Source: a virus. Taken from it: DNA of 41,511 nt. Both the position numbers and the translations under genes were made by a program. Location of the stretch: IMG/VR virus record IMGVR_UViG_3300008262_000166, positions 1 through 41,511 of that record; one strand, given 5' to 3'. Numbering within the stretch: the first letter of the stretch is position 1; each line of letters starts with the position of its first letter. Below the pieces are notes generated by a model. The model saw only the letters and a list, made by a program, of their open reading frames with translations, did no database searches and had not been told where the DNA came from. Shown here one piece after another: positions 2,539-29,112 of this stretch.

Positions 2539-3000
2539 ATGGCTAATGGAAGAACATTTGGTATTGCGTTTCCGTTTAATGACTCAACAACCGGTAAATA
2601 TTTAAAACTTACTGAGACGAGCGACGATGAAATAAGATCAAATCTTATTCATTTATTATTAACTAGAAAAGGTTCTAGATATTTTTTACCTGATTTTGGA
2701 ACAAGATTATATGAATATATCTTTGAACCATTGGATAGTCCCACTTTTAATAATATAGAATCTGATATTAGAGATGCTTGTGAAAAGTTTATTCCTAATT
2801 TAAGAATTACCGATATTTCAATTACTGCGGCATCGAGCGAAGAAGAAACAATTTCAGTGACAACCGCTGGAAATACAATAAATAAAGAATTTTCGATGCC
2901 AAATCAGGGTCAAATTGAATATACCGCAAAGGTTAGAATTGAATATACTGTGACAGATAGTGTTTTCGGTAGTAAAGATTTCGTTATAATTAATATTTAA
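2539..3000 (+). CDS. Baseplate wedge protein, gp25-like (GPW/gp25 family)
   Basis: A 153-aa protein of the gp25/GpW family, the small wedge component that contacts the sheath in contractile-tail baseplates. The family core is clear: IRSNLIHLLLTRKGSRYFLP, then DFGTRLYEYIFEP, then an acidic helix with an IRDAC segment and the LRITDISI strand. The segment corresponding to the T4 gp25 lysozyme-like fold occupies roughly residues 30-100. The C-terminal 45 residues form a polar beta-rich extension ending IEYTVTDSVFGSKDFVIINI. The gene is followed after 4 nt by the gp6-like wedge gene, the order expected for contractile tails. The start is fixed by the ATG at 2539, 18 nt after the preceding stop. 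Confidence 0.92.
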   Translation: MANGRTFGIAFPFNDSTTGKYLKLTETSDDEIRSNLIHLLLTRKGSRYFLPDFGTRLYEYIFEPLDSPTFNNIESDIRDACEKFIPNLRITDISITAASSEEETISVTTAGNTINKEFSMPNQGQIEYTAKVRIEYTVTDSVFGSKDFVIINI

Positions 3001-3004
3001 TAGT

Positions 3005-4846
3005 ATGGCAGAAAAAAGAATATCATATACAACAAGAGATTTTCAATCTATAAGAACTGAATTAATAAATTTTGTTAAAATTTATTATCCTGAATTGGTT
3101 GATAATTTTAATGATGCTTCCGTTTTTTCTGTTTTTTTGGATTTAAACGCTGCAGTATCCGATAACTTACATTTTCATATTGATAGAAGTATTCAGGAAA
3201 CTGTCTTACAATACGCTCAGCAAAAATCTTCCGTATTTAACATAGCAAGAACTTATGGATTGAAACTACCAGGACAAAGACCATCTGTTGCTATGGTTGA
3301 TTTTTCCATAACAGTTCCGGTTTTTGGTGATAAAGATGATGAAAGATATGAGGGAATATTGAGAAGAGGAAGTCAGGTCTTGGGCGCGGGGCAAGTGTTT
3401 GAAACAGTCTATGATATTGATTTCGCATCTCCATATGATGCGAAAGGGTTTCCAAATAGATTGAAAATACCAAACTTCAACGCTAACAATATCTTGATTA
3501 ATTATACTATTGTCAAAAGAGAACTTGTTGTTAATGGTATAACAAAGGTATTCAAACAATCAATCTTACCCTCTGATGTGAGACCATTTTATGAGTTATT
3601 TTTACCTGAAAAAAATGTTTTGGGTATAACTTCAGTTATTCAAAAAGACGGTACTAGTTATGCTAACGTCCCTACCTCTCAAGAATTTTTAACTAATGAT
3701 GGTAGATGGTATGAAGTAGACGCTTTGGCTCAGGATAAAGTTTTTGTTGAAGATCCTACAAAACCATCTGATGATCCGGGAATAAAAGTTGGTAGATATC
3801 TTACCACTAGTGATAGATTCATAACAGAATTCACACCTGAAGGGTTTTTGAAAATGACTTTTGGAGGTGGAAACACATCTGCGGAAGACCAATTAAGAGA
3901 ATTTGCAAGATCGGGAGTTAATGTTCAACCTATGCAATCTTATTTGAATAACTTTTCTTTAGGTAGCACATTGAGACCGAATACGACTCTATTCATTCAA
4001 TACAGAGTTGGTGGGGGTTTAGGGACAAATATTGGTGTTAATGTGATAAACCAAGTAGGAACTGTTGATTTTTTTGTTAGTGGTCCTTCACAAGATATTA
4101 ACACGTCAGTTATTAATTCTTTAAGTTGTAATAATATAACCGCGGCAATTGGAGGTTCCGGATTACCAACATTAGAAGAAGTTAGAAATTTTGTTTCATT
4201 TAATTTTTCGGCACAAAACAGAGCGGTCACAATAAATGATTATGAGGCTTTGATAAGAAAAATGCCGGCACAATTTGGAGGCCCTGCAAAAGTTGCGGTC
4301 GTAGAAGAAGATAACAAAGTTAAAATTAAGATATTAAGTTATGATACCTCCGGAGCACTAACTCAAATTGTATCAAATACTTTGATATCAAATATCGCCG
4401 AATATCTTTCAAATTATAGAATGTTAAATGATTACATCTCTGTTGAAACTGCGGATGTTATTGATTTGTCAATTGATATCTCGGTTGTATTAGATTCAAG
4501 TCAAAATCAAGGATCTATTATAACATCTATAATTAATAAAATAACCACTTTTTTTAACCCCTTATCAAGGCAGTTGGGTCAAAATATTAATACATCAGAT
4601 TTAAATAGAATCATTCAAAATGAAAATGGGGTTATGTCTATAACCTCAATACAATTCTTTAATAATGTTGGTGGGCAATATTCATCTTCTGAAACATCTA
4701 TGGCGTATGAAAATGCGGAAACAAGAGAGATTAAACCTGTAGATGGGACTATTTTTGCATTACCCAATCAAATTTATCAAATAAGATTCCCTAATAAGGA
4801 TATTAGGGTTAGAGTTAAGAATTTCCAAACAGTTACCATATCATAA
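3005..4846 (+). CDS. Baseplate wedge protein, gp6/gpJ-like
   Basis: A 613-aa homologue of the T4 gp6 / P2 gpJ wedge protein, which forms the inner baseplate ring and connects wedges. The N-terminus has the usual form: a YTTRDFQSIRTELINF segment, then YYPELVDNFNDASVFSVFLD (residues about 28-47), then a helix with a DNLHFHIDRSIQETVL segment and QKSSVFNIARTYGLKLPGQR. The middle is beta-rich. The C-terminal third has a gp6-like arm domain with LEEVRNFVSFNFSAQNRAVT and NDYEALIRKMPAQFGGPAKV. T4 gp6 is about 660 aa, so the length fits. It lies directly behind gp25. An 88-nt gap with two TATTTAT elements and an imperfect hairpin follows. Confidence 0.9.
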   Translation: MAEKRISYTTRDFQSIRTELINFVKIYYPELVDNFNDASVFSVFLDLNAAVSDNLHFHIDRSIQETVLQYAQQKSSVFNIARTYGLKLPGQRPSVAMVDFSITVPVFGDKDDERYEGILRRGSQVLGAGQVFETVYDIDFASPYDAKGFPNRLKIPNFNANNILINYTIVKRELVVNGITKVFKQSILPSDVRPFYELFLPEKNVLGITSVIQKDGTSYANVPTSQEFLTNDGRWYEVDALAQDKVFVEDPTKPSDDPGIKVGRYLTTSDRFITEFTPEGFLKMTFGGGNTSAEDQLREFARSGVNVQPMQSYLNNFSLGSTLRPNTTLFIQYRVGGGLGTNIGVNVINQVGTVDFFVSGPSQDINTSVINSLSCNNITAAIGGSGLPTLEEVRNFVSFNFSAQNRAVTINDYEALIRKMPAQFGGPAKVAVVEEDNKVKIKILSYDTSGALTQIVSNTLISNIAEYLSNYRMLNDYISVETADVIDLSIDISVVLDSSQNQGSIITSIINKITTFFNPLSRQLGQNINTSDLNRIIQNENGVMSITSIQFFNNVGGQYSSSETSMAYENAETREIKPVDGTIFALPNQIYQIRFPNKDIRVRVKNFQTVTIS

Positions 4847-4851
4847 TAATT

Positions 4852-4858
4852 TATTTAT
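4852..4858 (+). promoter_or_regulatory. TATTTAT element in the gp6 / 1807-aa gene gap (upstream copy)
   Basis: The first of two TATTTAT copies in the 88-nt gap. It lies 7 nt before an ATG at 4866 that opens only a 4-codon frame, so it does not clearly serve a gene. It may be part of a double element with the copy at 4912. Confidence 0.25.
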
Positions 4859-4877
4859 TCTCATAATGGTTTATGTT

Positions 4878-4913
4878 TAGTTATTACGCCTGTAAAAAAC
4901 AGACGATTAACTA
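4878..4913 (+). terminator. Imperfect hairpin between the gp6-like gene and the 1807-aa gene
   Basis: TAGTTA (4878-4883) pairs with TAACTA (4908-4913). Inside it, CG then CTGT pairs with ACAG then CG around an AAAAA loop, giving about 13 pairs with one mismatch and a small internal loop. The downstream tract is CTATTTATAAATT rather than a T run, so termination is uncertain. The 3' arm overlaps the TATTTAT element at 4912-4918, which could make it a processing site or operator instead. Confidence 0.3.
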
Positions 4914-4918
4914 TTTAT
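4912..4918 (+). promoter_or_regulatory. TATTTAT element, 16 nt before the 1807-aa gene
   Basis: Shares AACTATTTATAA exactly with the element upstream of the gene at 14072. The distance to the start codon is also identical (16 nt), and the element before 24952 is at 17 nt. This fixed spacing is the best reason to regard it as functional. Confidence 0.45.
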
Positions 4919-4934
4919 AAATTAAAAGATTTAG

Positions 4935-7900
4935 ATGGGTAAATCATATAGGATAAGAACCACACCCGGTGAAGATAAAAATATCGTTGTCCAAGTAGAT
5001 CAAGATTTTGAGCAGTTAGAAATACTTTCACTTAAAATAAGACAGACAGATGTTTACGATAGAATGTGTTCTGATTACGGTATTATTGCGGGTAGAGTTT
5101 TTGCTAACAGAGGGTATGGTATTCCAAATGCGAAAGTTTCAATTTTTATTCCGGTATCTGATGAAGACGCTCAAAATCCGGTTATTTCTACGATTTACCC
5201 GTTCAAAACTTTAGAACAAACAAATGAAGATGGGTATAGATTTAATTTATTACCTTATTTACCATCATATCCAGGGCATGTTCCAACTGGCACTTTTCCA
5301 TCAAGATTAGATTCAGTTGTTGATCAAACCGCCATAGAGATTTATGACAAGTATTACAAATATACGGTAACCACAAACGAAAGTGGTGATTATATGATTT
5401 TCGGAGTTCCTCTTGGAACTCAAACAATCGTAATGAATGTTGATTTATCGGACATTGGTGCGTTTTCGTTATCTCCACAAGATTTGATAAGAATGGGGAT
5501 GGCAACTGAAGAACAGTTTGACGGTGTTAAGTTTAGGTCATCTCCAAATTTTTATGAACTACCTCAAATTATTGTTATAAATAAGACGATAGATATCCAA
5601 CCATTTTGGGGTGAACCAGAAGTTTGTAGAATTGGAATTACAAGAACTGACTTTGATTTAAGTGCGGAGGCGAATATCGATATCCAACCTACGGCTATTT
5701 TCATGGGATCTGTCATGAGCACTAACGAGAAGGCGTCATTGAGAGCGAACGGAGCTTCTCAAAAATCAACGGGAGAGTTGTGCAAATTAATTACGGGTCC
5801 TGGAGAAATTATTGGTATTACTCAAACAATATTCCAAGATAATAATGGTCTACCTGTGCTAAGAAGGGCTGAATTACCTAACGGAGGAAAATTAATAGAC
5901 GCAAATGGCACTTGGTTATTTGATGTTCCTATGAATAGGGATTATGTATTCACAAACGAGTTTGGACAGCAAGTTTTGTCGGATGATCCAAGTATTGGGA
6001 TACCAACAAAAGGTAAATATAGGTTTAAAATCAAATGGCAACAATCTAGTAATTTGAATGAAGATTATAAAGTTGGATATTACTTGGTGCCAAATATTAG
6101 AGAAAGAGGTTGGGGGGCAAACGTTGACCCTGCAACACTTTCACGCACAACACCTGAATGGAATGATTTTCAAAAATCCTATGGTTTCAGTTTAGATTGG
6201 AGTGGATACACGACAGGATTAATTAACCTGAATAATAGAGATATACGAAATGCGATAAATTGTGAGGATACTTTTTATGAATTTGATTATAATAAAGTGT
6301 ATACAGTTGCCGGACTTGTGGATAACTATAAAATAACTCAAGCAAAATCAAATTTGATTCAAAACTTGTTTTTTAATGTTAATCACAGAGAAAGATTTGT
6401 TGGAATAAAAAGAATTGAGGATGATACTTGTGAAGACACGACAAATAGATACCCTGTTAACGATGGGGTATTTAGAGCAACATTGATATGGCGTGTTTTC
6501 GATTTTCTAATTGCGTTAGTGGGTCTTATTGGGCTTGTTATTATAGTAGTATATTCTATAGTCGCATTTGTTTGGAATTGGTTGAAAGTCTTTTTGGGTG
6601 TTTTTTTAGTGTTTATGTTAGGAAAAGAATCCGCGACTTGGTTTGTAAAGTTTGTCACCCCATTAGTTAGTGGTAATGCCGGAGGTCCTGTTATTATATG
6701 GGATTGGAAGGCGTTTGCTTTTTTCATTTTATATGCGGGATTGGCTGTTGCTATGGCGGCTATTTTCGCTAGATTATTAAACTACAATTTCAAACCTATA
6801 AAATTACCAATGCTAACTTATCCGGATTGTACTAGTTGTGATTGTTCTGGTGGAAACTCGGATGGAGGGACTACTTTGGGCGGAGATGAAGGTGACCAAA
6901 ATAATACTACCGAAAATTCCGGAGCAATTAAAAATCCTCAATATAGTTTAGGTGAGTATTTATCCTCTGATTGGGAAACGGTAGCCCCTGTTTTCACAGG
7001 TCAAAATGGATGTCAAGTTTTTTGGCAAGAAGAGGATATGTCGATTATGACCCCACTAATTTTAGGTTCAGAGTTAAGTAAAAATAAAAAAAATAAAGCG
7101 TTCAAAGTTACACCCAAATACGTAATAAAACAAGGAAGCAATCAGAGATTTTTCACTAATAGTTTACCTTTAAGTGAAATTATAAACTTATATAATTTAA
7201 AGGCTAATTATTTTTACAATCAAAAAAATTCCTGTAATAGTATCGGTGTTAGAGTAGAACCTAGTTTGAATCCGCAGTCCAACGTACATATGGACAATGT
7301 ATTAGTTTTTTTTAGTGAAATGGAAAATGATCAGGTGATTCCTGGAACTATGTATTCATTTGTAAATCCTGAACTATCTAAAGACACTAATGATATTTCA
7401 GGAGGAACTGGCAACTCAACTATTAAAGGGATAACAGGGACTACAAATTATTTATCTCAAGTCACAATAACATATGCCGATCCGCAATCACCGAACCAAC
7501 AAAATTTTCAAACTACATATCAATTAACGGCGTCCGCGGTAACAACCAATCTTTTTTATAATTATAAATCAGATATTGAGTATTACCAAGTCATCACTGC
7601 AATAACTTATTCTGAATTTTTAAATTTGGTTCCATCTAATAATTTAATACAAAATTCTTTTGGTTATTTGATGAAAAGTGGTGAAACGAAATTATCAAAA
7701 ATAGACCATTTCGGCGAAGACGGAAGAAATGAATGTGGTTGTGACTTTTGTAGTAGTAAATGGAATGTGTCAAATGTAAATATACCGTATAGATCTTACA
7801 TTAACCCGGCAACTAAAGTCGTTTTCATGATGAGGGGTGTTGATCCATACTCACCAAAATATGAAACAGAAGTTTCATTAGATAGGATTTTAGGGTATAA

Positions 7901-10358
7901 CACAAATTACTTAAATGGGTCAAATAATTGGCAATTTAAGATAAAGGCTAATCTAAGATTGAATATTCCGATACAAAATCCGACAGTGAATACTAATAGA
8001 CATATAGTCCCTATACATGATAACTTCACAACTACAAATGGTATGATAGATACATCTAGTGATCAATACTTATTTTATCCATCATACTTTTTTAATCCGG
8101 ACCAAACTAAATTCATTAACTTCACGACAAATCTTCACCGGTATTATTCTGCTTTGGATTTCACTAAATCAACCTATGAGGTTGAAATTGGTAATAATAG
8201 AACACAACTTAGTTCTCATGCTAGATTTGTTAGTGATTTCAACAGTGATCGTGACTCACGGGTTAATAACACTTTTACTTGTACTAATATTACTAATATT
8301 TCAACAAATGCTTTCATTCAAAACGGGGCGCCTTTTGCTTATGATAAATACAACAATGAAGATTCTGTTGCGGGGGGGACTTTCATGTACAGAGGATTAT
8401 TTACGTGGTATCAACCCTGTTTCATTAGTAATGATGTAGCTTTTGGACCATGCCTAAATTTGTCTCAATTTACCAATATATGGACGGCTTTTGATATTTG
8501 TAGAGGATGGTCTGAACCAACTTATTTCAGTTTTATTTATGATTCATCAATAAATTTGAATTTTAATGACGCTAATAGAATTGTTATGAGAACGGACAGG
8601 TTACCTTCAAGTAGTACGTTGGCTAAATTTTCAACCGGTGCGACAAATCCAACATCTACTAATGCAAAAGGTGAAAACACATCTATTTTCGTTCAGAATG
8701 ATAGCTTTTCGATGTACCAAATTACTGAAGAGGGTGTTTTATCTATTGGAGGTGGAGTCCCAACTCCTCAATATGGTGAGGGAGAAGTTGTTTCAGGGTC
8801 AAATGAGTTTTATGGTAATGTTTTTAGTACATTCGATTGTGAAGGTATGGTTGAATTAGATTGCTATGAACAATCAGGATTAGAGTTTAAAGTTAATCCA
8901 ACTTGTTCGACTAAAGATGTTGTTGAAAATGGGTGTTATGTTTTCGTCAAAGAACCATTGATAGGGTTATTTAAACCAAAAGGGAATACTGATTTAGATA
9001 ATTGGTCTGAGTATATTATGAGGTATCGTTTCTTTTATGGATTATGTCAGGGGGTATTTTCAACTGTTTTCATAAATAATTGGGTGAACGGTAACCTATT
9101 TGCTTTTTCTTTCAAAGTTGACACTTTTTATAACTCATTGAATGAAGTTTATAAAAGGGTGTATCCGAAAGATGTTATAGTTTTACAAGAAGATAGTAAT
9201 AATTTTTACTATAGATCATCTCCTGTTCAGTATAGTTCTCAATTATCTACAACACCAAGATTTATAGGGTCACAAGGTGGTCAAGAATCCGATGGACAAA
9301 ATACAAGGAACTTGAAGTATCCGACAACACTTCTGAATTTGGGACCAAGAGATGGATTCCTTAAGTTTTTAACTATGAATTCTAATTTTGATGGTTATAA
9401 CATTAATCAATTACCACAAACAACTTATAGTGATTTATCTGATATGATAAACTTTTTTTCAGTTATAAGATTGTTAGATGTTGGATTTTGGGATGGGTTT
9501 GTTAGTAGAAACCAACTTACAAAACTTTTTTCTAGAGGAAGTTTCAAGAATTCAGCAAAAGTCGATGGGGATTTTGCGCAGTCAGCATCCGTAAATTCAG
9601 AATTAGGTGTTATACCATTTGATTCTGAATATTATTCAAGTTCAGGACCCAATCCATCACTAATTTCTGCCGAAGGATTCAAAAAAGAAAGAATGATGGG
9701 TGTTTATTATTATTCACCTTTGGATGATCTACAGATAAGAGATTTAATTTCTCCTATGAGAATTATAAGATATAAAAATATTTCACAAAATCAGTTTTTT
9801 TATCAGAACTTGTCTGAAAAATCCCAAATAGTACCAAATTATAAATGGAGAATAGATAGTGCGGGAACCACAATTTTCGGAACTCAGAGAAATACTTGGG
9901 CAACAAATTCAGGTGTCATTAGAAACGGATATAGATATCAAGATTTAAATAGAATTACAAGTGGATATTTTAGTGATGGTGATTTGACTAACGATACATT
10001 TTATAGGGGTTATATTCATGCTTATGAATTTGGACCTAAAACACAAACAAGTGATACTCCCTCAATGTTAATAATTGGGAATTCTTATACTATTTTAGAA
10101 TATAACACCGGAGATGATTTTTATGGTAATAACTCGGTAGGTGCGACTTTTAAATATACCGGTATAACTAATTTCGATTGGACAAATGGGTCAAAACTCT
10201 TTTATGAGGGTAAATTTTTATATACACCTAAAAAATCAACACCTGTGGTACTTGTCGGAGCTCCTTGGCATTTTTATTTTGGTGTCACCAAAGGAGCCAC
10301 GGCCATAAATAGATTCTTTACAAAATATTTAGGAATAGAAGAATTCAATGAGCAATAG
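4935..10358 (+). CDS. Giant tail/baseplate structural protein with carboxypeptidase-regulatory-like N-domain and hydrophobic segment
   Basis: An 1807-aa protein, the largest in the window and placed among baseplate genes. Residues about 50-110 (GIIAGRVFANRGYGIPNAKV, then NEDGYRFNLLP) and about 138-175 (TTNESGDYMIFGVPLG) look like carboxypeptidase-regulatory / transthyretin-like beta domains. Residues about 516-620 hold two long strongly hydrophobic stretches (starting DFLIALVGLIGLVIIVV, and FAFFILYAGLAVAMAA) separated by a polar loop. A Cys cluster (CTSCDC, around residue 631) and a Gly/Asp/Asn linker follow. The remaining 1,150 residues are polar, Asn/Tyr/Phe-rich and beta-like, without domains I recognise. 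The next gene starts inside its last 11 nt. A virion location is inferred from context. The membrane-type segment is unusual for a baseplate protein and may act in membrane contact during ejection. Confidence 0.75.
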   Translation: MGKSYRIRTTPGEDKNIVVQVDQDFEQLEILSLKIRQTDVYDRMCSDYGIIAGRVFANRGYGIPNAKVSIFIPVSDEDAQNPVISTIYPFKTLEQTNEDGYRFNLLPYLPSYPGHVPTGTFPSRLDSVVDQTAIEIYDKYYKYTVTTNESGDYMIFGVPLGTQTIVMNVDLSDIGAFSLSPQDLIRMGMATEEQFDGVKFRSSPNFYELPQIIVINKTIDIQPFWGEPEVCRIGITRTDFDLSAEANIDIQPTAIFMGSVMSTNEKASLRANGASQKSTGELCKLITGPGEIIGITQTIFQDNNGLPVLRRAELPNGGKLIDANGTWLFDVPMNRDYVFTNEFGQQVLSDDPSIGIPTKGKYRFKIKWQQSSNLNEDYKVGYYLVPNIRERGWGANVDPATLSRTTPEWNDFQKSYGFSLDWSGYTTGLINLNNRDIRNAINCEDTFYEFDYNKVYTVAGLVDNYKITQAKSNLIQNLFFNVNHRERFVGIKRIEDDTCEDTTNRYPVNDGVFRATLIWRVFDFLIALVGLIGLVIIVVYSIVAFVWNWLKVFLGVFLVFMLGKESATWFVKFVTPLVSGNAGGPVIIWDWKAFAFFILYAGLAVAMAAIFARLLNYNFKPIKLPMLTYPDCTSCDCSGGNSDGGTTLGGDEGDQNNTTENSGAIKNPQYSLGEYLSSDWETVAPVFTGQNGCQVFWQEEDMSIMTPLILGSELSKNKKNKAFKVTPKYVIKQGSNQRFFTNSLPLSEIINLYNLKANYFYNQKNSCNSIGVRVEPSLNPQSNVHMDNVLVFFSEMENDQVIPGTMYSFVNPELSKDTNDISGGTGNSTIKGITGTTNYLSQVTITYADPQSPNQQNFQTTYQLTASAVTTNLFYNYKSDIEYYQVITAITYSEFLNLVPSNNLIQNSFGYLMKSGETKLSKIDHFGEDGRNECGCDFCSSKWNVSNVNIPYRSYINPATKVVFMMRGVDPYSPKYETEVSLDRILGYNTNYLNGSNNWQFKIKANLRLNIPIQNPTVNTNRHIVPIHDNFTTTNGMIDTSSDQYLFYPSYFFNPDQTKFINFTTNLHRYYSALDFTKSTYEVEIGNNRTQLSSHARFVSDFNSDRDSRVNNTFTCTNITNISTNAFIQNGAPFAYDKYNNEDSVAGGTFMYRGLFTWYQPCFISNDVAFGPCLNLSQFTNIWTAFDICRGWSEPTYFSFIYDSSINLNFNDANRIVMRTDRLPSSSTLAKFSTGATNPTSTNAKGENTSIFVQNDSFSMYQITEEGVLSIGGGVPTPQYGEGEVVSGSNEFYGNVFSTFDCEGMVELDCYEQSGLEFKVNPTCSTKDVVENGCYVFVKEPLIGLFKPKGNTDLDNWSEYIMRYRFFYGLCQGVFSTVFINNWVNGNLFAFSFKVDTFYNSLNEVYKRVYPKDVIVLQEDSNNFYYRSSPVQYSSQLSTTPRFIGSQGGQESDGQNTRNLKYPTTLLNLGPRDGFLKFLTMNSNFDGYNINQLPQTTYSDLSDMINFFSVIRLLDVGFWDGFVSRNQLTKLFSRGSFKNSAKVDGDFAQSASVNSELGVIPFDSEYYSSSGPNPSLISAEGFKKERMMGVYYYSPLDDLQIRDLISPMRIIRYKNISQNQFFYQNLSEKSQIVPNYKWRIDSAGTTIFGTQRNTWATNSGVIRNGYRYQDLNRITSGYFSDGDLTNDTFYRGYIHAYEFGPKTQTSDTPSMLIIGNSYTILEYNTGDDFYGNNSVGATFKYTGITNFDWTNGSKLFYEGKFLYTPKKSTPVVLVGAPWHFYFGVTKGATAINRFFTKYLGIEEFNEQ

Positions 10359-14071: not shown

Positions 14072-14977
14072 ATGGCAGTTGGAACATACGGAACCATTAG
14101 ACCGGCGGATGTATCTCCGGAAGATGTTGAAATAATATTGAACTACACACCATCAAGAGATGTAACTGACGATTTTACGTTAAAAAAATTAAACGCGGCA
14201 AACATTTTAAGACCTTATTTTAATAATAACAATACAGGTGGAAACCCGGTTGAAATTTTGGGGGGCCTATATAATCTGAGATTACCTGCTGAAGAGTTTA
14301 ACAGATTAGGTATTTACACCTTATATGTAAGACCTGCTCAGATTAGAACTCAAATCACAGATTGTGGAGTATTATCCGCATTACCAAATGTTAAAGGATT
14401 GGTTATTAATTTAGATAACGTACCAAGCGATGCTAGAAATAAATTTGTGGCTCAAGGAATGGTTGGTTTCAGAATTGAATATTTGAATGATAATGGAACG
14501 AAAATTCCTAATTTTTTCAGAATTGTAACTTCGAATTTCTTTTGTGAACCGGTATTACAAAACTTAACGAATACTGCTCAAAAAGCGGTCAGATACAGGT
14601 ATGTTGATGGAGAAACAAATTTGATGTTCCTTACATTATCACCATCATCCTCACCATCAAACAAACCAAACGCAACACCATTTATTGGGCAACCCGCTCA
14701 AAATATCATTTTAACTAATACCTTCTTCAATCCGATAACAATTGATATAGAACTTGTAGATCAAGACATATCAACACTTGCAATTGCCCTTTACGGCAAT
14801 CAAACCAAGTCAATTGATGACGGTATCTATACAATATACGATTCAAGTAATAATATATATAAACAATACAATCTATATGAAATTAGAGATGAATTTAATT
14901 CTCTCCTTTATGAGGTTAGACAAGATAGAGGTGATAATGTAGATTTTAGCAAAAACTTTTCAACCATAACTCAATAA
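14072..14977 (+). CDS. Putative tail/baseplate structural protein (301 aa)
   Basis: No family recognised. The N-terminus (GTYGTIRPADVSPEDVEIIL) contains a short acidic helix, and the rest alternates strands. Residues about 190-215 form a low-complexity Ser/Pro/Asn linker (SPSSSPSNKPNATP). The C-terminal part, IYTIYDSSNNIYKQYNLYEI, then FNSLLYEVRQDRGDNVDF, looks like a repeated hairpin. It is the first gene of the unit after the TATTTAT element at 14049 and overlaps the next gene by one base (TAATG). From its position between baseplate genes it may be a wedge component, but no sequence motif proves it. Confidence 0.7.
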   Translation: MAVGTYGTIRPADVSPEDVEIILNYTPSRDVTDDFTLKKLNAANILRPYFNNNNTGGNPVEILGGLYNLRLPAEEFNRLGIYTLYVRPAQIRTQITDCGVLSALPNVKGLVINLDNVPSDARNKFVAQGMVGFRIEYLNDNGTKIPNFFRIVTSNFFCEPVLQNLTNTAQKAVRYRYVDGETNLMFLTLSPSSSPSNKPNATPFIGQPAQNIILTNTFFNPITIDIELVDQDISTLAIALYGNQTKSIDDGIYTIYDSSNNIYKQYNLYEIRDEFNSLLYEVRQDRGDNVDFSKNFSTITQ

Positions 14978-17922
14978 TGGCTAGAAAATTTTTTAGATAT
15001 CCCCCAAGACCTTCAAGTGGAGCTGGAACTTTTTCAGACAATATTGTGGGATTGCAACTCGTAGATGGGGGTGGACTTACTTTAGGTAATTTTGATTTTA
15101 CGACTGGTGTTACTGAAAAAGTTAACAGGAATTTCAGTATTGGAGCATTTTCAGATCCAATAAACTTGGACGCCCTTAAAATCTATAATATAAATGAGTC
15201 AAGAGAAATTACGGCAAAAGAATTTAGAGTTTATCCAAATTTTGATTTAAGTGAAATTTCCACATTTAATCTTTATGGGTCATTATCCAAAAGAATCTCA
15301 ACATCGGTAGAAAAGATAATCAACTATTTCCCCGCGTCGATTGAGGTCTTCAGTTTGAAGTCGACATTTCTAACTGGGTATACGGCCTATAATATAATTT
15401 ATGATCCATTAGAAAACGCTACAACTTTTGACATTCAAGTACAAGATATTACTAATCCATTCGGTATTGATTTTTCAGTAAATGCGACTAGAAACCTCTC
15501 CATGAGAGAGATGAAGGTTTCACAATTAAGAAATCTAACTGTTGAGTATGAAAAATACTCTTTATATATTGGTGAGGAGGAGTACGGTGTTTTATTTTTA
15601 ACACCTTCTCAAAGTCTATTCAATGGGGTTATAAGTTTAATAGTCGATGGTAATCCATTCAAAGGTAATAATATATCTGCGGTAGATTATATAATAAGAC
15701 CTAACGATTTTTATTCCGATAAAGCATTTATTGAACAATTTGACGAGGTAGAACAGTTTTTATTGAACAGGTTAATTGTTCCAAAATATACTGCGGTTTT
15801 TCAAGTGCCTAAAGAATCTGATGATGGGACCACTTTTATACAAAATCAAACCGTTACATGGCCTTTGGACGGTATTTGGAATATAGATATAAGAACTCCG
15901 AGTTTTGATTTTTACTTGAGTCAATTGAACGAAATTTCAAGTTCTTTTGATAGTTTTAGAACAAATTTAATTGCTAGGTTTTTAACCACAGAATCATTCA
16001 AAGAGTTTGATACTGAAGATAGGAAAGTTCAAAAAATATTAGAATTATATGGTAGAAGTTTTGATGAGGTGAAAAAATTCATAGATGGTTTATCACATAT
16101 GACATCAGTGAATTATACAATTAAAGATGATATACCATCTCAACTTCTAAAGAATTTATCGGAAACATTAGGTTGGAAAATTAATATTTCCCCTATTGCA
16201 AATGAGGATTTTTTATCTTCAGTTTTTGGTAATACAAATAAAATTGAATATCCCGGGTTTTCAAGAGCATCAACACCTACTGAATTAAATTATCAATTTT
16301 ATAGAAATTTGATATTGAATTCTGCTTACTTATTTAAATCTAAAGGAACGAGAAAATCTATTGAATTTCTTTTAAGATTGGTGGGGGCTCCCGAAGCGAT
16401 AGTCGAATTTAATGAACACATTTATATTGCCGGACAAAGAATCAATATGAATGAGTTCGAAAAAAAATATATTGATATATCTGATGGGATATATATTCAA
16501 GAACTACCGGTTTTAAATACTCAACCAAGTGGGATATTCAAATTTAACGGAAATGTATATACCGCTTTCACAACTGAACAAACATATTTGGCGGTTAATA
16601 TTGATAGGGAAGATTTTCCTGTTGATGATGAGGGTTATCCTACAGCACCTGTTGATACTGAAGATTATTACTTCCAAAAAGGTGCCGGGTGGTTTGAGTT
16701 AGTTAAAGAACACCAAAGTCCTCAGCAAGTCAATCAAACCGCAAGTACATTCACAGGTCAAAATTTCAATATTCAAACCGAGTTCGAAAATTTCACTTAC
16801 GGACAAAAGTATTTGGATAGATTTAGAAACTTTCCTTATATCTCCGAAGGTTTCAAACTTATAAGAACTTCTGATAACAGGAAAAGTTGGCCATCAACCG
16901 ATGTTAATTTGAGAGTTGGTAATGGATCCGCGAAATTTGATGCTTATTATTTTACACAAGATGAAAGGTTCATTCTTAATGTGAAAAATGTTGACATATT
17001 TATGAATCCGGCTCAAGGGTTGGTATATGACGTTTGGAGTATGTCAAATAGATATAACTATCCAATACCAAGTACTGGGTTAACAATTCCATATCCAGTA
17101 CCTGATGGTGTGGATTGGACTTTCATTAATCCGCAACCAACGAAGAAAACATTTTTCGAATTTGCTCAAACTTTTTGGAGAAATACGATTAACGTAAGAA
17201 ATAGACAATTTATTTCTGATGGTAAGACAGGGGGTTATCCCACATTACAATCAATTTATTTTAATTACTTAAATTCACAACAAAATATTAACATACCAAA
17301 TGACAATTTTACATATAAAACAATGATTGATTATGTAAATGGTCTTGGTGATTATTGGGTAAGGTTGGTTGAGCAAATGATTCCCGCAACTACTATTTGG
17401 ATGACGGGAACCAAATATGAAAATTCAATATTTCACAGGCAGAAATTTGTATATAGGTTGCAAAGAGGTTGTCCTGTTGTTCCGGTTCCTTGCGATCCGT
17501 GTTTCTTTACGACTTCGTTGTTTGATTTTAACTGTTTTGATGATAGCGTGTCTTGCAATTTATATCCCCAAGACCCGTTTAGTGTGATATTGTCAAATAT
17601 TATGAATAATTATCAATCCACAAATTCATTATCTTGTGATTTAAATACTCTACAAACAAAATGGTATTTGGATTTAAGATTAGATAACCAAACAATTCTA
17701 AAAGAGTTGGTTTATAACGGTAATGGAAGTTTGGATGTTCCGACAAATCAAATTTGGGAAACTTCAATACAAAATTATCTACCCCAACTTATCAATCAAG
17801 GTATCTATTATTCAATTAGTGGAAATACTTTATATATTTATAATTCCGGTTGTGATAATTATTTAAGTAATAAGAACTTAAAAATAAACGTAGGATTAGA
17901 TTTTTCAGTAAGTTGTAGTTAA
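14977..17922 (+). CDS. Large baseplate/tail protein with P2 gpI-like segment (981 aa)
   Basis: Residues about 370-475 resemble the P2 gpI-type tail protein family: LLKNLSETLGWKINI, then FYRNLILNSAYLF and KSKGTRKSIEFLLRLVGAPE, a signature of wedge proteins that bridge the baseplate and fibres. An EKYSLYIGEEEYGVLFLTP segment and a helix-rich zone around residues 330-370 precede it. The size (981 aa) and position are compatible with the role of T4 gp7, but I see no direct T4 gp7 match. The C-terminus (17626-17919) is a Cys-flanked domain also found in the next gene. It overlaps both neighbours by one base. Baseplate assignment good; exact subunit uncertain. Confidence 0.75.
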   Translation: MARKFFRYPPRPSSGAGTFSDNIVGLQLVDGGGLTLGNFDFTTGVTEKVNRNFSIGAFSDPINLDALKIYNINESREITAKEFRVYPNFDLSEISTFNLYGSLSKRISTSVEKIINYFPASIEVFSLKSTFLTGYTAYNIIYDPLENATTFDIQVQDITNPFGIDFSVNATRNLSMREMKVSQLRNLTVEYEKYSLYIGEEEYGVLFLTPSQSLFNGVISLIVDGNPFKGNNISAVDYIIRPNDFYSDKAFIEQFDEVEQFLLNRLIVPKYTAVFQVPKESDDGTTFIQNQTVTWPLDGIWNIDIRTPSFDFYLSQLNEISSSFDSFRTNLIARFLTTESFKEFDTEDRKVQKILELYGRSFDEVKKFIDGLSHMTSVNYTIKDDIPSQLLKNLSETLGWKINISPIANEDFLSSVFGNTNKIEYPGFSRASTPTELNYQFYRNLILNSAYLFKSKGTRKSIEFLLRLVGAPEAIVEFNEHIYIAGQRINMNEFEKKYIDISDGIYIQELPVLNTQPSGIFKFNGNVYTAFTTEQTYLAVNIDREDFPVDDEGYPTAPVDTEDYYFQKGAGWFELVKEHQSPQQVNQTASTFTGQNFNIQTEFENFTYGQKYLDRFRNFPYISEGFKLIRTSDNRKSWPSTDVNLRVGNGSAKFDAYYFTQDERFILNVKNVDIFMNPAQGLVYDVWSMSNRYNYPIPSTGLTIPYPVPDGVDWTFINPQPTKKTFFEFAQTFWRNTINVRNRQFISDGKTGGYPTLQSIYFNYLNSQQNINIPNDNFTYKTMIDYVNGLGDYWVRLVEQMIPATTIWMTGTKYENSIFHRQKFVYRLQRGCPVVPVPCDPCFFTTSLFDFNCFDDSVSCNLYPQDPFSVILSNIMNNYQSTNSLSCDLNTLQTKWYLDLRLDNQTILKELVYNGNGSLDVPTNQIWETSIQNYLPQLINQGIYYSISGNTLYIYNSGCDNYLSNKNLKINVGLDFSVSCS
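17626..17919 (+). other. Cys-flanked C-terminal domain shared with the SprB-like fibre
   Basis: Starts SCDLNTLQ and ends KNLKINVGLDFSVSC. The copy at about 19746-20024 starts NCKLNTAEF and ends KNIEVDLGIEYYICC. Both share the opening Cys-x-Leu-Asn-Thr, an internal aromatic/Asp-rich core, a Cys about 30 residues before the end, and the closing KN-[LI]-x-[IV]-x-[VL]-G-[LI] strand. This may be a docking or trimerisation domain. Confidence 0.6.
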
Positions 17923-21264: not shown

Positions 21265-23706
21265 ATAACAATTCCGGCTTCAATTCAAATATCGAGTATT
21301 ACTGGAACTTCACCTTATGAAGTAATTGTTTGTGATATTTTCCAAAGTAATTGTGAAAATTATGGAACATATACATCTTTACCGATTGATGTTATACTAT
21401 CAAGTACGTTTGATGATGCACCGGCGGTTTTAATAAAAGTTATTGATAGTTTAGGGTGTGAAGCAGTACTAATTGATGATTGTATTCCTATGATTAGCCC
21501 AACTCCGACACAAACAAATACGCCAACACAAACTTCAACTCAAACACCGACAAATACTTCTACTGAAACCCCAACTCCAACATCTTCAGAAACGCCAACT
21601 CAAACACCCACAAATACTTCTACAGAAACGCCAACCCCTACATCGTCAGAAACGCCCACAAATACTCCGACTAATACACCAACGCCCGATCCTACTTTAA
21701 CCCCAACCAATTCTCAAACACCTACCAATACTGAAACTCCAACACAAACACCAACTGAAACTCCTACTGAGACTGCAACACAAACACCAACTGAAACTCC
21801 TACGGAGACTGCCACTCAAACACCTACCGAGACCACCACTCAAACTCCGACAGAAACTCCAACACAAACCCCAACTAATACAGAAACTCCAACACAAACT
21901 GCATCTGAAACTCCAACTAATACTCCAACTAATACAGAAACCCCAACTAATACACCCACACAGACTCCAACACCAACTGTAATATTACCGTCTTTTCAAG
22001 CGAGGGTAAACACAACTTTGACTAGTGCCGGTAGTTCAGGATCTAATCAATTTGCACTTCCGTTGGTAAGTGCGGGAACATATAATATGATAGTAGATTG
22101 GGGAGACGCGGGTCCTACAGATTATATAACGACTTGGAATAGTCCATTAACTGCTCACACATATACAACTCCGGGAATTTATGATGTGACGATTTATGCC
22201 TACCCGGGTAATTTAAGAGGTTGGAGATTCAATAACTCGGGAGATAGGTTAAAAATGTTACATGTTAATAGGTGGGGACCTTTACAACTTCAATCTACTG
22301 GAATAACATTTTTGGGTTCGTACTTTTATGGTTGTTCAAATTTGAGATTAACCGGGACCACAGATGTAATAGATTTGAGTGGATCTACTAACTTACGAGA
22401 AATGTTTAGATCTTGTACAAGTCTCACTACAATAAATAATGTTAATTCTTGGAACACGTCAAATGTTACGGTGATGAATAATATGTTCCAAGGGTGTACT
22501 TTATTCAATAATGATTTAAGTGGTTGGACGACTTCCGCTGTCACAACGGTGGCGTCAATGTTTTCATCTTGTAATACCTTTAACAAAAATATTGGTAATT
22601 GGGATACATCAAAAGTTACAACCTTCAACGCCATGTTTGAAAATGCTGTGAATTTTGATAATGCCGGTAATAATTCAATAAACAATTGGATTACTTCGGC
22701 GGCCACCGCAATGAACTACATGTTTTACAACGCTAATAAATTTAATAGAAATATTGGTTCTTGGGATGTTTCTAAAGTTCAGGCCTTTGGATATATGTTC
22801 GGGCTTGCCAGCTTATTCAATAATAATAATAATCCGTCAATAAGTGGTTGGACGACATCGGCGGCGACTCAAATGGGTCATATGTTTTTAAATAGTTCGT
22901 TCAATCAACCCATAGGAAGTTGGGATGTGAGAAATGTTACAACTTCAATCGCGAACAGTAACGGATTCCATAGCACGTTTGCTGGTTCACCGTTCAATCA
23001 AGATATTGGTGCGTGGAATGTCTCGGCGGCGACATTTTTTAGAAGAACATTTGGATCGGCATTCAATAATGGAGGAAGTCCATCAATAAGTGGGTGGAAC
23101 ACATCTAACGTTGTTGATTTTGGTTTAACTTTTCAAGGTACTGTGTTTAATCAACCTATAGGAACGTGGAATACCTCAAAAGTGACTAATTTCACACAGA
23201 TGTTCGCATCTTCTCCTTTCAACCAAAATATTGGTAATTGGAACACATCTGCAGCAACAACTATGAATGGTATGTTTTTATCTAATAGTTCTTTTAATAA
23301 TTCTGGTTTTACCACAATATCTGGATGGAACGTATCTAACGTTTTAGATATGTCATCAATGTTTGCCAGTGCAATTTCATTCAATCAACCAATAGATTCT
23401 TGGAATGTTTCTAATGTTAGGAATATGGTAGATATGTTCAGAAATGCAACCGCATTCAATCAGCCCATAAGTGGTTGGTCGGCATCCTCCGTTACCGCAT
23501 TTACAGGATTTATGACAGGAAAAACATTCTCAAATTATTCGACGGCCAACTATGATAGTTTATTGAATAGTTGGTCAACCAAAACATTAAAATCCGGATT
23601 AACGATTAATTTTGGAACTATAAAATATACTGTGACCGGTCAGCCGGGAAGAGATGTGCTTACAGGAAGTCCTTATAATTGGATAATTATTGATGGGGGG
23701 TTATAG
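21265..23706 (+). CDS. Fibre with DUF285/BspA-type repeats; probable AUA start (813 aa)
   Basis: The first ATG in frame is at 21490, but the frame is open upstream and encodes a 75-residue domain ([15 protein letters not shown], ending KVIDSLGC) that matches the N-terminal adaptor of the gene at 27518 (TSLTGSQPFDVYLCD, ending KVIDNNQC). At 27518 the start lies 13 nt after the preceding stop with leader ...AAAAATT-ATG; here the codon 13 nt after the stop is ATA at 21265 with leader ...AAAAATT-ATA. I therefore take 21265 as the start; ATT at 21262 is the alternative. Next come a Thr/Pro stalk (residues 78-238), a PKD-like piece ([11 protein letters not shown], then [14 protein letters not shown]), and about 13 DUF285 repeats of the form IGxWxTSxVTxMxxMFxxxxxFNQ (about 390-750). 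The C-terminus (YDSLLNSW, then NWIIIDGG) is typical for DUF285 proteins. It is probably a receptor-binding fibre. Confidence 0.8.
21496..21978 (+). repeat. Thr/Pro stalk 2, with 60-nt and 36-nt tandem units
   Basis: About 160 codons of Thr, Pro, Glu, Gln, Asn, Ser. Two 60-nt units lie at 21541-21600 and 21601-21660 (period [20 protein letters not shown] or close). Two 36-nt units lie at 21745-21780 and 21781-21816 ([12 protein letters not shown]). The units differ mostly at third positions, so the repeats are moderately old but still similar enough for slippage or recombination. Confidence 0.85.
22432..23520 (+). repeat. DUF285/BspA-type protein repeats (about 13)
   Basis: Units of about 24-32 codons with the skeleton I-x-x-W-[NDT]-x-S-x-[VA]-T-x-[FM]-x-x-M-F-x(5-8)-F-N. 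Clear members include [32 protein letters not shown] and [16 protein letters not shown]. Repeat 7 contains an insertion. In bacteria such repeats occur in surface adhesins. Confidence 0.85.
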
Positions 23707-27517: not shown

Positions 27518-27739
27518 ATGTCAAAACTAGTAACCATAACGAGTTTAACAGGATCACAACCTTTCGATGTTTATCTATGTGATAATACATATAATAGTTG
27601 TATGTATATTTCAACTATCAATAATATCGATGTTCCATATTCATTTCTTGTAACATTACCCTATTTATCGTTAAATGAAGTTGGCGTGAAAGTAATAGAC
27701 AATAATCAATGCATAATTCAAAACAAAGTTAATATATAA
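27518..27739 (+). CDS. Standalone N-terminal adaptor domain protein (73 aa)
   Basis: The start MSKLVTITSLTGSQPFDVYL is at 27518, 13 nt after the preceding stop; an in-frame ATG at 27470 lies inside the preceding gene and is rejected. The whole protein corresponds to the N-terminal domain of the fibre at 21265, and more weakly to the N-termini of the proteins at 29124 and 31241: an ITG-x-x-P-[FY]-[DE]-V strand, a Cys-Asp, a P-x-x-F-x-V strand and a closing KVID-x-x-x-C. As such N-termini normally attach a fibre to the virion, this could be a free adaptor or connector, or the head of a fibre whose distal part is the next gene. It overlaps the next gene by one base (TAATG). Confidence 0.75.
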   Translation: MSKLVTITSLTGSQPFDVYLCDNTYNSCMYISTINNIDVPYSFLVTLPYLSLNEVGVKVIDNNQCIIQNKVNI

Positions 27740-29112
27740 TGTCTTGTATTAAAAATACATTAGGGTTTGATATAGATTCCAAGCAAATGGCGTGTGTCAA
27801 TTATTGGGTAAATCCTATTGATTATTTTTTAACCTGTAATTATAATACCAACCCTAATTTAAACATAAACTGTAGTGCATATACAGATTCTGGTTGCACA
27901 GTTTTCGTAAACACAAATGGTTATTTTTCTCAAAATAACACATTAAGACCCTATTCACCAAGCACTCCAAATCCGAATCTTAATCCGGTTGAAGCATGTT
28001 TGACAAGCTCATCTGTAAAAAAATGTTGCGGAGATGATGATACGGTTTACAAAATATCCAATTTAAGTTTAATATTAGGATTTGCAGCACCCGTTGGAAT
28101 TGTTTTGGATTTAGAAGTTACGGATTCTAATTTTAATATTTTTAGACAGTGTTTTGAAGTTGTTCCATCTGCAACCGCTGTAGTTCCATTATTAACCGCA
28201 AATAATGTTTTTGGTAAATATGCAATTGATGACTGTGATATTTGTAGAGATACAAATCCAAATTGTTATTTACCGGATGGGAATTTTACATTCCAAAATT
28301 GTAAAACAGGGTCACAAATTGTATTAACAATTGATGAAGCGAACACCATAAAAGTTGGTGATGTTGTATCATTTAGTGGTGAATGTTATTCGGCGACGAC
28401 AATCCCACCTGTATTACCGTCAACTGGATCTACAGGTCCGGTATTGGCGGGAGGATGTAATAACTCTTTTTGTAAACCAACACCTCCCGTAACTATACAA
28501 AGTGAATACGTTTCCGGATGTTGTGATGGAAGAGTTTATAAACTAATTTCAGGTAATAAATATAACGTTGGGTTTACTTTAAGTGTTGAACCTTTTAATT
28601 TCTGTTATACTGTTATAAATAAGCCTGCATCAACTGTTGTAGTTTATGATTTAAACGATTTTGCGGGAATAACAATAACAACGGGATGTGATAGTTTGGA
28701 ATGTCAAACTTGTCCTCCCGGACCACAACCAATACCAACTGGTTCTGGACCAACTGCTGATCCTTGTAATCCAATTACAATATTTGATATGTTTATCAAA
28801 TGTTTGGCTGTGAATCCAACATCAACAACATTTGGTTTATTATCTGTGGCGGTTACCGGAGGAACACAACCTTACACCTATACTTGGACAACACCTCAAG
28901 GAACAAAAATAAAAAATGTTAAAACTCTTATTAATCAACCTGAAGGAACTTATGAAATTGAGGTAGTTGATAAGTATGGTGATTTCATTAAAAAGGAGTT
29001 TTGTACATTAACGGAAATAAAAGATTGCACCTTCCAAGCTAGAATAAAATCAATATCTAATTTAGATTGTCAAAAAATAACGGCAATACAAGGATATTGT
29101 TTTAGTCCATAA
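27739..29112 (+). CDS. Cys-rich modular virion protein (457 aa)
   Basis: Starts one base inside the preceding stop. It is built of Cys-bracketed beta modules: KKCCGDDDTVYKIS (about residue 94), FQNCKTGSQIVLTID with VGDVVSFSGECYS (about residues 190-215), and SGCCDGRVYKLISGNKYNVG with FNFCYTV (about 258-290). The last 100 residues contain one SprB-like unit (TGGTQPYTYTWTTPQG, then PEGTYEIEVVDKYG). The FQNC/GECY module resembles the FEDCC/GCAQV module of the preceding 850-aa fibre. No signal peptide or membrane segment is seen. It is likely an adhesion-locus structural protein, working with the 73-aa adaptor. Confidence 0.75.
   Translation: MSCIKNTLGFDIDSKQMACVNYWVNPIDYFLTCNYNTNPNLNINCSAYTDSGCTVFVNTNGYFSQNNTLRPYSPSTPNPNLNPVEACLTSSSVKKCCGDDDTVYKISNLSLILGFAAPVGIVLDLEVTDSNFNIFRQCFEVVPSATAVVPLLTANNVFGKYAIDDCDICRDTNPNCYLPDGNFTFQNCKTGSQIVLTIDEANTIKVGDVVSFSGECYSATTIPPVLPSTGSTGPVLAGGCNNSFCKPTPPVTIQSEYVSGCCDGRVYKLISGNKYNVGFTLSVEPFNFCYTVINKPASTVVVYDLNDFAGITITTGCDSLECQTCPPGPQPIPTGSGPTADPCNPITIFDMFIKCLAVNPTSTTFGLLSVAVTGGTQPYTYTWTTPQGTKIKNVKTLINQPEGTYEIEVVDKYGDFIKKEFCTLTEIKDCTFQARIKSISNLDCQKITAIQGYCFSP

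Follow-up and report, generated by a model that had tools for sequence, protein, structure and literature searches.

A membrane-like helical block in a giant protein encoded beside the baseplate wedge genes of putative Bacteroidota jumbo phages

Introduction

How the DNA of long contractile-tailed phages crosses the inner membrane is not well understood, and suspicion usually falls on the tape measure protein; pb2 of T5 is a tape measure protein with membrane-spanning segments. In the tape measure protein of TP901-1, groups of hydrophobic segments have been proposed to enter the host membrane at ejection, and deletion of the first region abolished both plaques and lysogeny (PMC5099701). A different arrangement occurs in the Cis13/Cis12 thylakoid-anchored contractile injection system (tCIS), in which the contractile tail is fixed to the membrane through a transmembrane helix of a protein associated with the baseplate; Cis13, part of a cell-bound machine, is a trimer resembling a tail fibre and has its helix at the C-terminus (PMC8894136). 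These two reports are the nearest found, and in the available text of the literature searched no phage baseplate protein with such a domain is described. Large phages with predicted Bacteroidota hosts have been reported as Jug phages (PMC12363816) and bS21 phages (PMC9723584), the latter source covering freshwater phages of up to 331 kb with Bacteroidetes as predicted hosts; the available text of both, and of PMC12810830 and PMC12619734, holds nothing on the protein considered below.

The present analysis concerns a 1807-aa protein, here called BIG, that is encoded in a 41,511-base IMG/VR virus record; this whole stretch of DNA is referred to as the window. BIG resembles tape measure proteins in being a large tail-gene protein with hydrophobic segments of the membrane type, but differs from them in following gp6, in the beta-rich character of its modelled part outside the hydrophobic block, and in the presence of a separate tape-measure homologue in related records; moreover, BIG has no match to the tape-measure family (PHROG, E 1e-3). 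Similarly, BIG is encoded among contractile-tail baseplate genes, as is Cis13, whereas its block is internal (residues 517–615 of 1807) and its system is a phage. New in this work are distant jumbo-phage relatives that combine one to three hydrophobic segments in BIG with a small M-x-C-x-C ORF, and the joint absence of these segments in one subclade.

Gene context and virus type

In the window, a ribonucleotide reductase gene is followed by a 133-aa ORF, the gp25-like gene, the gp6/Baseplate_J-like gene and BIG (Table 1), and only 8 of the 353 listed loci with BIG were set aside because no gp6 lay within 2.5 kb upstream. The earlier note had called BIG a baseplate protein; the position of the gene after gp25-like and gp6-like genes favours this description, but PHROGs and NCBIfam contain no family that BIG matches. 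Judged by gene order, BIG is probably part of the virion. In T4, gp7 comes directly after gp6, and BIG occupies the same place; yet it is the 981-aa ORF further downstream that weakly matches, by BLAST over about 190 aa (E ~1e-5), the large ORFs of the gp6-related phages immuto (1265 aa) and Mel-JY01 (1336 aa), which suggests that this ORF rather than BIG may be their counterpart. Three phages with gp6 at 26–28% identity have no convincing BIG homologue (best E 0.0026, 7.7 bits) and, within the stretch examined, no hydrophobic segment in ORFs of at least 300 aa downstream of gp6.

Records that carry BIG relatives reach 413 kb, and a tail-sheath match at E 0.001 was obtained in 10 of 12 of them (165–413 kb), in 3 above the family cut-off; because of the size of these records and their sheath matches, the window is taken as a fragment of a jumbo myovirus. 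The host is probably a member of Bacteroidota, since SprB repeats and a match to a T9SS sorting domain occur in a 1109-aa ORF of the window, and since Bacteroidetes are predicted as hosts of the freshwater phages (PMC9723584). The bS21 gene was found in 2 of 13 relatives' records, as in the bS21 phages; the likeness of Jug and bS21 phages to the BIG relatives is one of description. The 1109-aa phage ORF (17922–21251), in which the sorting-domain matches are internal, resembles Bacteroidota surface proteins, and a 738-aa ORF (21490–23706) contains six DUF285 stretches (E 7.6e-117).

Table 1. Positions of BIG, its neighbours and its internal features in the window (residues are those of BIG)
Feature	Position (nt)	Strand	Basis or remark
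gp25-like baseplate wedge gene	2539..3000	+	PHROG 261, E 3.9e-17
gp6/Baseplate_J-like gene, directly upstream of BIG	3005..4846	+	PHROG 219, E 9.7e-22; Pfam Baseplate_J
88-nt gp6–BIG gap, site of the small M-x-C-x-C membrane ORF in two-gene relatives	4847..4934	+	
BIG, 1807-aa ORF with hydrophobic block	4935..10358	+	ORF list and translation; relatives found
Transthyretin/CarboxypepD_reg-like beta-sandwich, residues 47–249	5073..5681	+	Model; in the conserved N-terminal part
NRYPVND, conserved anchor ahead of the block, residues 504–510	6444..6464	+	N504, P507 and N509 invariant in 55 sequences
Long helix, residues 517–578, strongly hydrophobic to about 562	6483..6668	+	KD 3.03; predicted helix, pLDDT 91–95 over 521–570
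Second hydrophobic helix, residues 591–615	6705..6779	+	KD 2.36; predicted helix, pLDDT 90–94
CTSCDC, residues 632–637	6828..6845	+	Y629, P630, C632, C635 and C637 invariant in 55 aligned relatives
NNWVNG motif, residues 1381–1386	9075..9092	+	Similar NDW(V/I)NG in several distant relatives
981-aa ORF	14977..17922	+	Weak BLAST matches to large ORFs of phages immuto and Mel-JY01

Family searches

BIG has no PHROG match at E 1e-3, no NCBIfam match and no Pfam family above cut-off, the sole match below cut-off being CarboxypepD_reg (E 0.0057), and PDB sequence profiles gave no match for either part of BIG at E 1. With tblastn, no match was found in 50,697 phage records, nor was a cultured member or a named family found; in one scan of metagenomes, by contrast, a relative was encoded by 439 of 452 pattern-matching stretches, so that the family is common there, yet the window's protein has no match in those phage records. 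Bacterial and archaeal genomes yielded 237 pattern stretches, of which none was confirmed, and no prophage or injection-system version was seen among them. Among five distant relatives, L113 matches phrog_32294 (baseplate wedge subunit; E 7.2e-5, residues 550–654) and L136 weakly matches phrog_2973; in tblastn searches of the phage records, L155 and L098 had no match, and L136 had the sole match LR756502, in its C-terminal part. The locus L098 (4559–6604, minus strand) encodes a distant 682-aa relative without the block and in a different gene order. The sole strong viral structure match, A0A8S5LA66 (BFVD; Myoviridae sp. ctPuP5), is a clear relative of BIG (Foldseek E 1.7e-49, 34% identity over 568 alignment columns) and is annotated as 'uncharacterized' only.

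The hydrophobic block and its predicted structure

The earlier note had placed two membrane-capable stretches followed by CTSCDC in the 1807-aa protein, and the sequence of BIG confirms this description. In the translation, residue 516 begins at nt 6480, and Kyte–Doolittle (KD) 19-mers peak at 3.03 (residues 525–543) and 2.36 (594–612), with all other non-overlapping 19-mers below 1.6; a hydrophobic segment is defined here as a 19-mer at KD of at least 1.6. The scale of Hessa 2005 marks the same two places. Shuffling of BIG's own residues equalled 3.03 in 1 of 5,000 trials and 2.36 in 160 of 5,000. The first stretch measures about 46 residues (517–562) and could cross a membrane once as a very long span or twice as short ones; the number two is thus to be read as a minimum. 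A positive-inside signal is not clear at the flanks of the window's block (−3, −1 and 0), and CTSCDC falls just beyond the interval 6480–6790 delimited previously. The only other window ORF of at least 130 aa with a hydrophobic segment is one of 457 aa (27739–29112), at most 1.94; the earlier view that such segments are rare in tail proteins agrees with the neighbours of BIG, but does not extend to the tape measure protein of TP901-1, which has them (PMC5099701).

Outside CTSCDC, cysteines 45, 231, 283 and 499 of BIG are invariant in 55 relatives, which seems unusual for a tail protein. An antisense ORF at 6383–6727 was rejected as a gene, because only 13 of 142 relatives have an open antisense frame of 110 aa or more, and is taken as a by-product of the hydrophobic codons.

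Residues 1–641 of BIG were modelled with AlphaFold2 from 129 of 146 rows (145 thinned relatives and the window, 17 rows being removed by hand for size or odd shape), with a mean pLDDT of 89.1 and a pTM of 0.75; 55 closer sequences had earlier given a poor model (pLDDT 51), and the second model alone was used. In this model, the block is predicted as two confident helices (residues 517–578 and 591–615), with ten-residue pLDDT means of 81–95 over 521–580, 90–94 over 591–620 and 58 in the loop between; the first helix runs for 62 uninterrupted residues, beyond the need of one crossing. The link to the beta-rich N-terminal part is weaker (pLDDT 56–82 between 461 and 520). The earlier note had regarded burial in a normal beta/alpha core as evidence against its reading, and the block is instead modelled as long helices and not as strands of the beta-rich part, the model being read for pLDDT and helix spans. 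Residues 47–249 reach VIA-align Z scores of up to 7.7 over about 80–100 residues, a level common among unrelated folds. PDB structure matches of the modelled residues 1–641 lie mainly in this beta-sandwich region, and the PDB Foldseek hits (TM by query length 0.07–0.14; many pilins, some pore-forming toxins) were set aside as chance or common folds.

Retention of the block among relatives

The block is present in all 80 relatives that were the best 80 of the 439 found in the first scan. A wider set was assembled from a DNA-pattern scan and from searches with two distant members (80 and 79 loci listed); relatives of the first scan and of both distant-member searches are at most the best 80 each, and counts of pattern-scan and second-search loci are to be read as "at least". 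These sources hold at least 353 loci with BIG, of which 301 are informative after removal of 43 cut BIGs, 8 loci without gp6 nearby and 1 fragment; the 301 contain some records twice, from different scans, and were thinned at 88% identity of residues 1–440 to 165. The earlier note had proposed to check whether relatives keep the segment, and 288 of the 301 informative listed loci do, some records being counted twice; in the thinned set, minus one artefact (L139), the block is kept in 156 of 164 listed loci.

In an alignment of 70 sequences (69 relatives and the window), columns 521–620 are poorly conserved, with block means from 0.58 to 0.18, while 64–81% of their residues are hydrophobic and the flanks are conserved; the letters drift in the window's clade while hydrophobicity stays. 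The first stretch has no charged residue across 33 positions in 111 of the 142 listed loci with the anchor, and in these 142 the first helix contains a histidine in 127 and a proline in 104, the window being without the histidine. Sequence comparison argues strongly that the hydrophobic helical module is real and selected.

One-gene and two-gene forms

The relatives fall into two main classes. The one-gene class, to which the window belongs, has BIG with the block and, by script, no small ORF between gp6 and BIG (156 of 301 listed loci). Across 155 of these loci, BIG has one, two, three or four non-overlapping hydrophobic 19-mers within the block in 22, 70, 45 and 18 cases, respectively, and additional ones elsewhere in 12. 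In the relatives L023, L024, L025, L026 and L046, the C-terminal half of BIG contains another strongly hydrophobic block, at residues ~1032–1084. The two-gene class (132 of 301) has BIG with a block of one to three segments and, between gp6 and BIG, a single-segment M-x-C-x-C ORF that measures 72–133 aa in a list picked without the cysteine pattern. In 10 further listed loci BIG is without the block, and the small ORF of 66–78 aa (one of 48) has the cysteine start and no segment at 1.6; the remaining 3 have neither block nor small ORF, and among them L139 is an artefact, with a truncated start and a block visible in another scan. After thinning, the listed loci comprise 87 with block and hydrophobic small ORF, 69 with block alone, 7 without both segments and 2 with neither (including L139).

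Hydrophobicity of the M-x-C-x-C ORF and of BIG agrees throughout: 132 listed loci have both, 10 have neither and none is discordant (87, 7 and 0 after thinning), the small ORFs of the 301-locus count being chosen by their cysteine pattern, which makes the shared motif partly one of construction. A CxxCxC or CxCxxC site occurs in BIG in 155 of 156 one-gene loci versus 4 of 132 two-gene listed loci; hence the cysteine site and the extra hydrophobic segments belong to one or other of the two, BIG or the small ORF. Of 160 sources of the one-gene class, 2 have a small M-x-C-x-C membrane ORF elsewhere near BIG, namely L072 (a minus-strand, chance-looking ORF) and L348 (a two-gene locus misfiled by script), and the same search pattern recovers 122 of 132 two-gene listed loci. 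Fusion of the small ORF and BIG in their present order was rejected as the route between the two forms, as the cysteines precede the span in the small ORF, which is the upstream gene, and follow it in BIG.

A quick tree of residues 1–440 from 71 rows (8 without block, 44 of 87 two-gene, 18 of 69 one-gene and the window) gives full support to the one-gene clade, and places the rows without block as one group (SH-aLRT 89, not starred; one row on a long branch) nested within the two-gene clade. The joint absence is therefore one loss event and one independent pair, which no test could make significant. When four small ORFs were compared with PHROGs and Pfam at E 0.1, no holin family was matched; the sole hits were to phrog_17238 (unknown, E 0.093) and, below cut-off, to DUF2981 (E 4.4e-4). 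In the gp6–BIG gap of L266, L271, L273 (same record as L106), L274 and L275, the M-x-C-x-C ORF is accompanied by another small hydrophobic ORF of 94–109 aa; these additional ORFs share a stretch that is partly basic, for example VTKRKIRRIRxLTKFKL.

Other candidates for the membrane step

In record G002, an ORF separate from BIG matches the tape measure family phrog_167 (E 2.1e-9), and counterparts in 11 jumbo records, one of them of the window's class, were identified as BLAST matches to this ORF or its homologues; the label is not firm for every record, as the G005 counterpart matches a tail lysin family instead. A 19-mer at KD of at least 1.6 is absent from these homologues in 8 of 11 records (highest 1.59, next 1.57) and present in 3, and the former suggest that another protein may perform the membrane step. 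A tail protein of ~2,200 aa, encoded in L374 (394–7014, record G005), L390 (G006) and L396 (G013), contains a hydrophobic segment in 2 of the 3 records where BIG is without the block, compared with 0 of 9 others, but values close to the threshold overlap (1.57 in the third no-block record, up to 1.57 in the others); it has a tail lysozyme domain in G005, and none was found in G001. The difference is a threshold effect and gives no more than a hint of a moved function.

Discussion

Alignment and model together support a block that is kept, helical and membrane-like. Its retention in nearly all relatives suggests insertion into a bacterial membrane by the tail or in the course of tail assembly; entry of the block into a membrane is likely, and insertion on ejection is plausible. 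A membrane-inserting block that acts at infection or ejection is, tentatively, the leading guess. BIG would be a tail-tip or baseplate-region protein of probable Bacteroidota jumbo myoviruses, with the helical block as its membrane-inserting module. The block would be shielded within the tail before infection; once the tail breaches the outer layers, the helices would enter the host membrane, most likely the inner one, where they may dock the tail end or line the DNA path. In the two-gene clade, the small CxC single-span protein from the adjacent gene would work with BIG, while in the window's clade the longer hydrophobic block and CxxCxC in BIG may replace the small protein's part. The insertion, its stage and its topology are presumed, as are the partnership with the small protein and any metal binding by the BIG cysteines. 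Against a role at ejection stand the single event behind the joint loss, the three hydrophobic tape-measure homologues, the flanks without clear positive-inside charge and the 62-residue helix.

The same membrane-like features could serve assembly instead, with BIG (and the small membrane ORF) tethering nascent baseplates to the cytoplasmic face of the inner membrane until detachment at lysis. Cytoplasmic synthesis fits the roughly 500 conserved residues ahead of the block, which by eye are not preceded by a signal peptide; the small ORF, with a lysine-rich N-terminus by eye, CxC and one span, looks like an ordinary inner-membrane protein, and in the cyanobacterial tCIS a protein bound to the baseplate provides, through its transmembrane helix, the attachment to the membrane (PMC8894136). 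Released virions, however, would carry exposed hydrophobic helices, and no phage precedent for such a baseplate protein was found in the literature searched, so that an assembly anchor seems rather unlikely.

The excess length of the first helix over the need of a bilayer, the polar or helix-breaking histidine and proline within it, and the one subclade that copes without the block would all suit helices that never meet lipid, lying inside a BIG oligomer or packed against another tail protein. This is improbable, because the stretch is hydrophobic throughout and mostly uncharged over 33 positions, drift of sequence with one to four segments is unusual for a packed core, and the adjacent small ORF resembles a membrane protein and co-occurs with the block. 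A membrane protein of the infected cell, active for example in host takeover or exclusion and merely located in the tail operon, would accord with the lack of any match to a known structural family; the steady position after gp6 in most loci, the size of BIG and an N-terminal beta-sandwich akin to adhesin/TTR-type folds make it a very improbable account.

For the membrane-inserting block favoured above, it is possible, if somewhat doubtful, that Bacteroidota jumbo phages have a dedicated baseplate module for membrane insertion apart from the tape measure, in which a giant protein of the wedge region contains an integral membrane domain, the module being built as one protein (with CxxCxC) or two (with a small CxC membrane partner) and losable as a unit. 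The hydrophobic domain lies in a protein other than the tape measure, conserved in position and with one-gene and two-gene forms, and the subclade without the block offers a natural comparison for the role of the domain. If true, and to judge from the literature searched, BIG would be the first phage baseplate protein in which an integral membrane domain is known.
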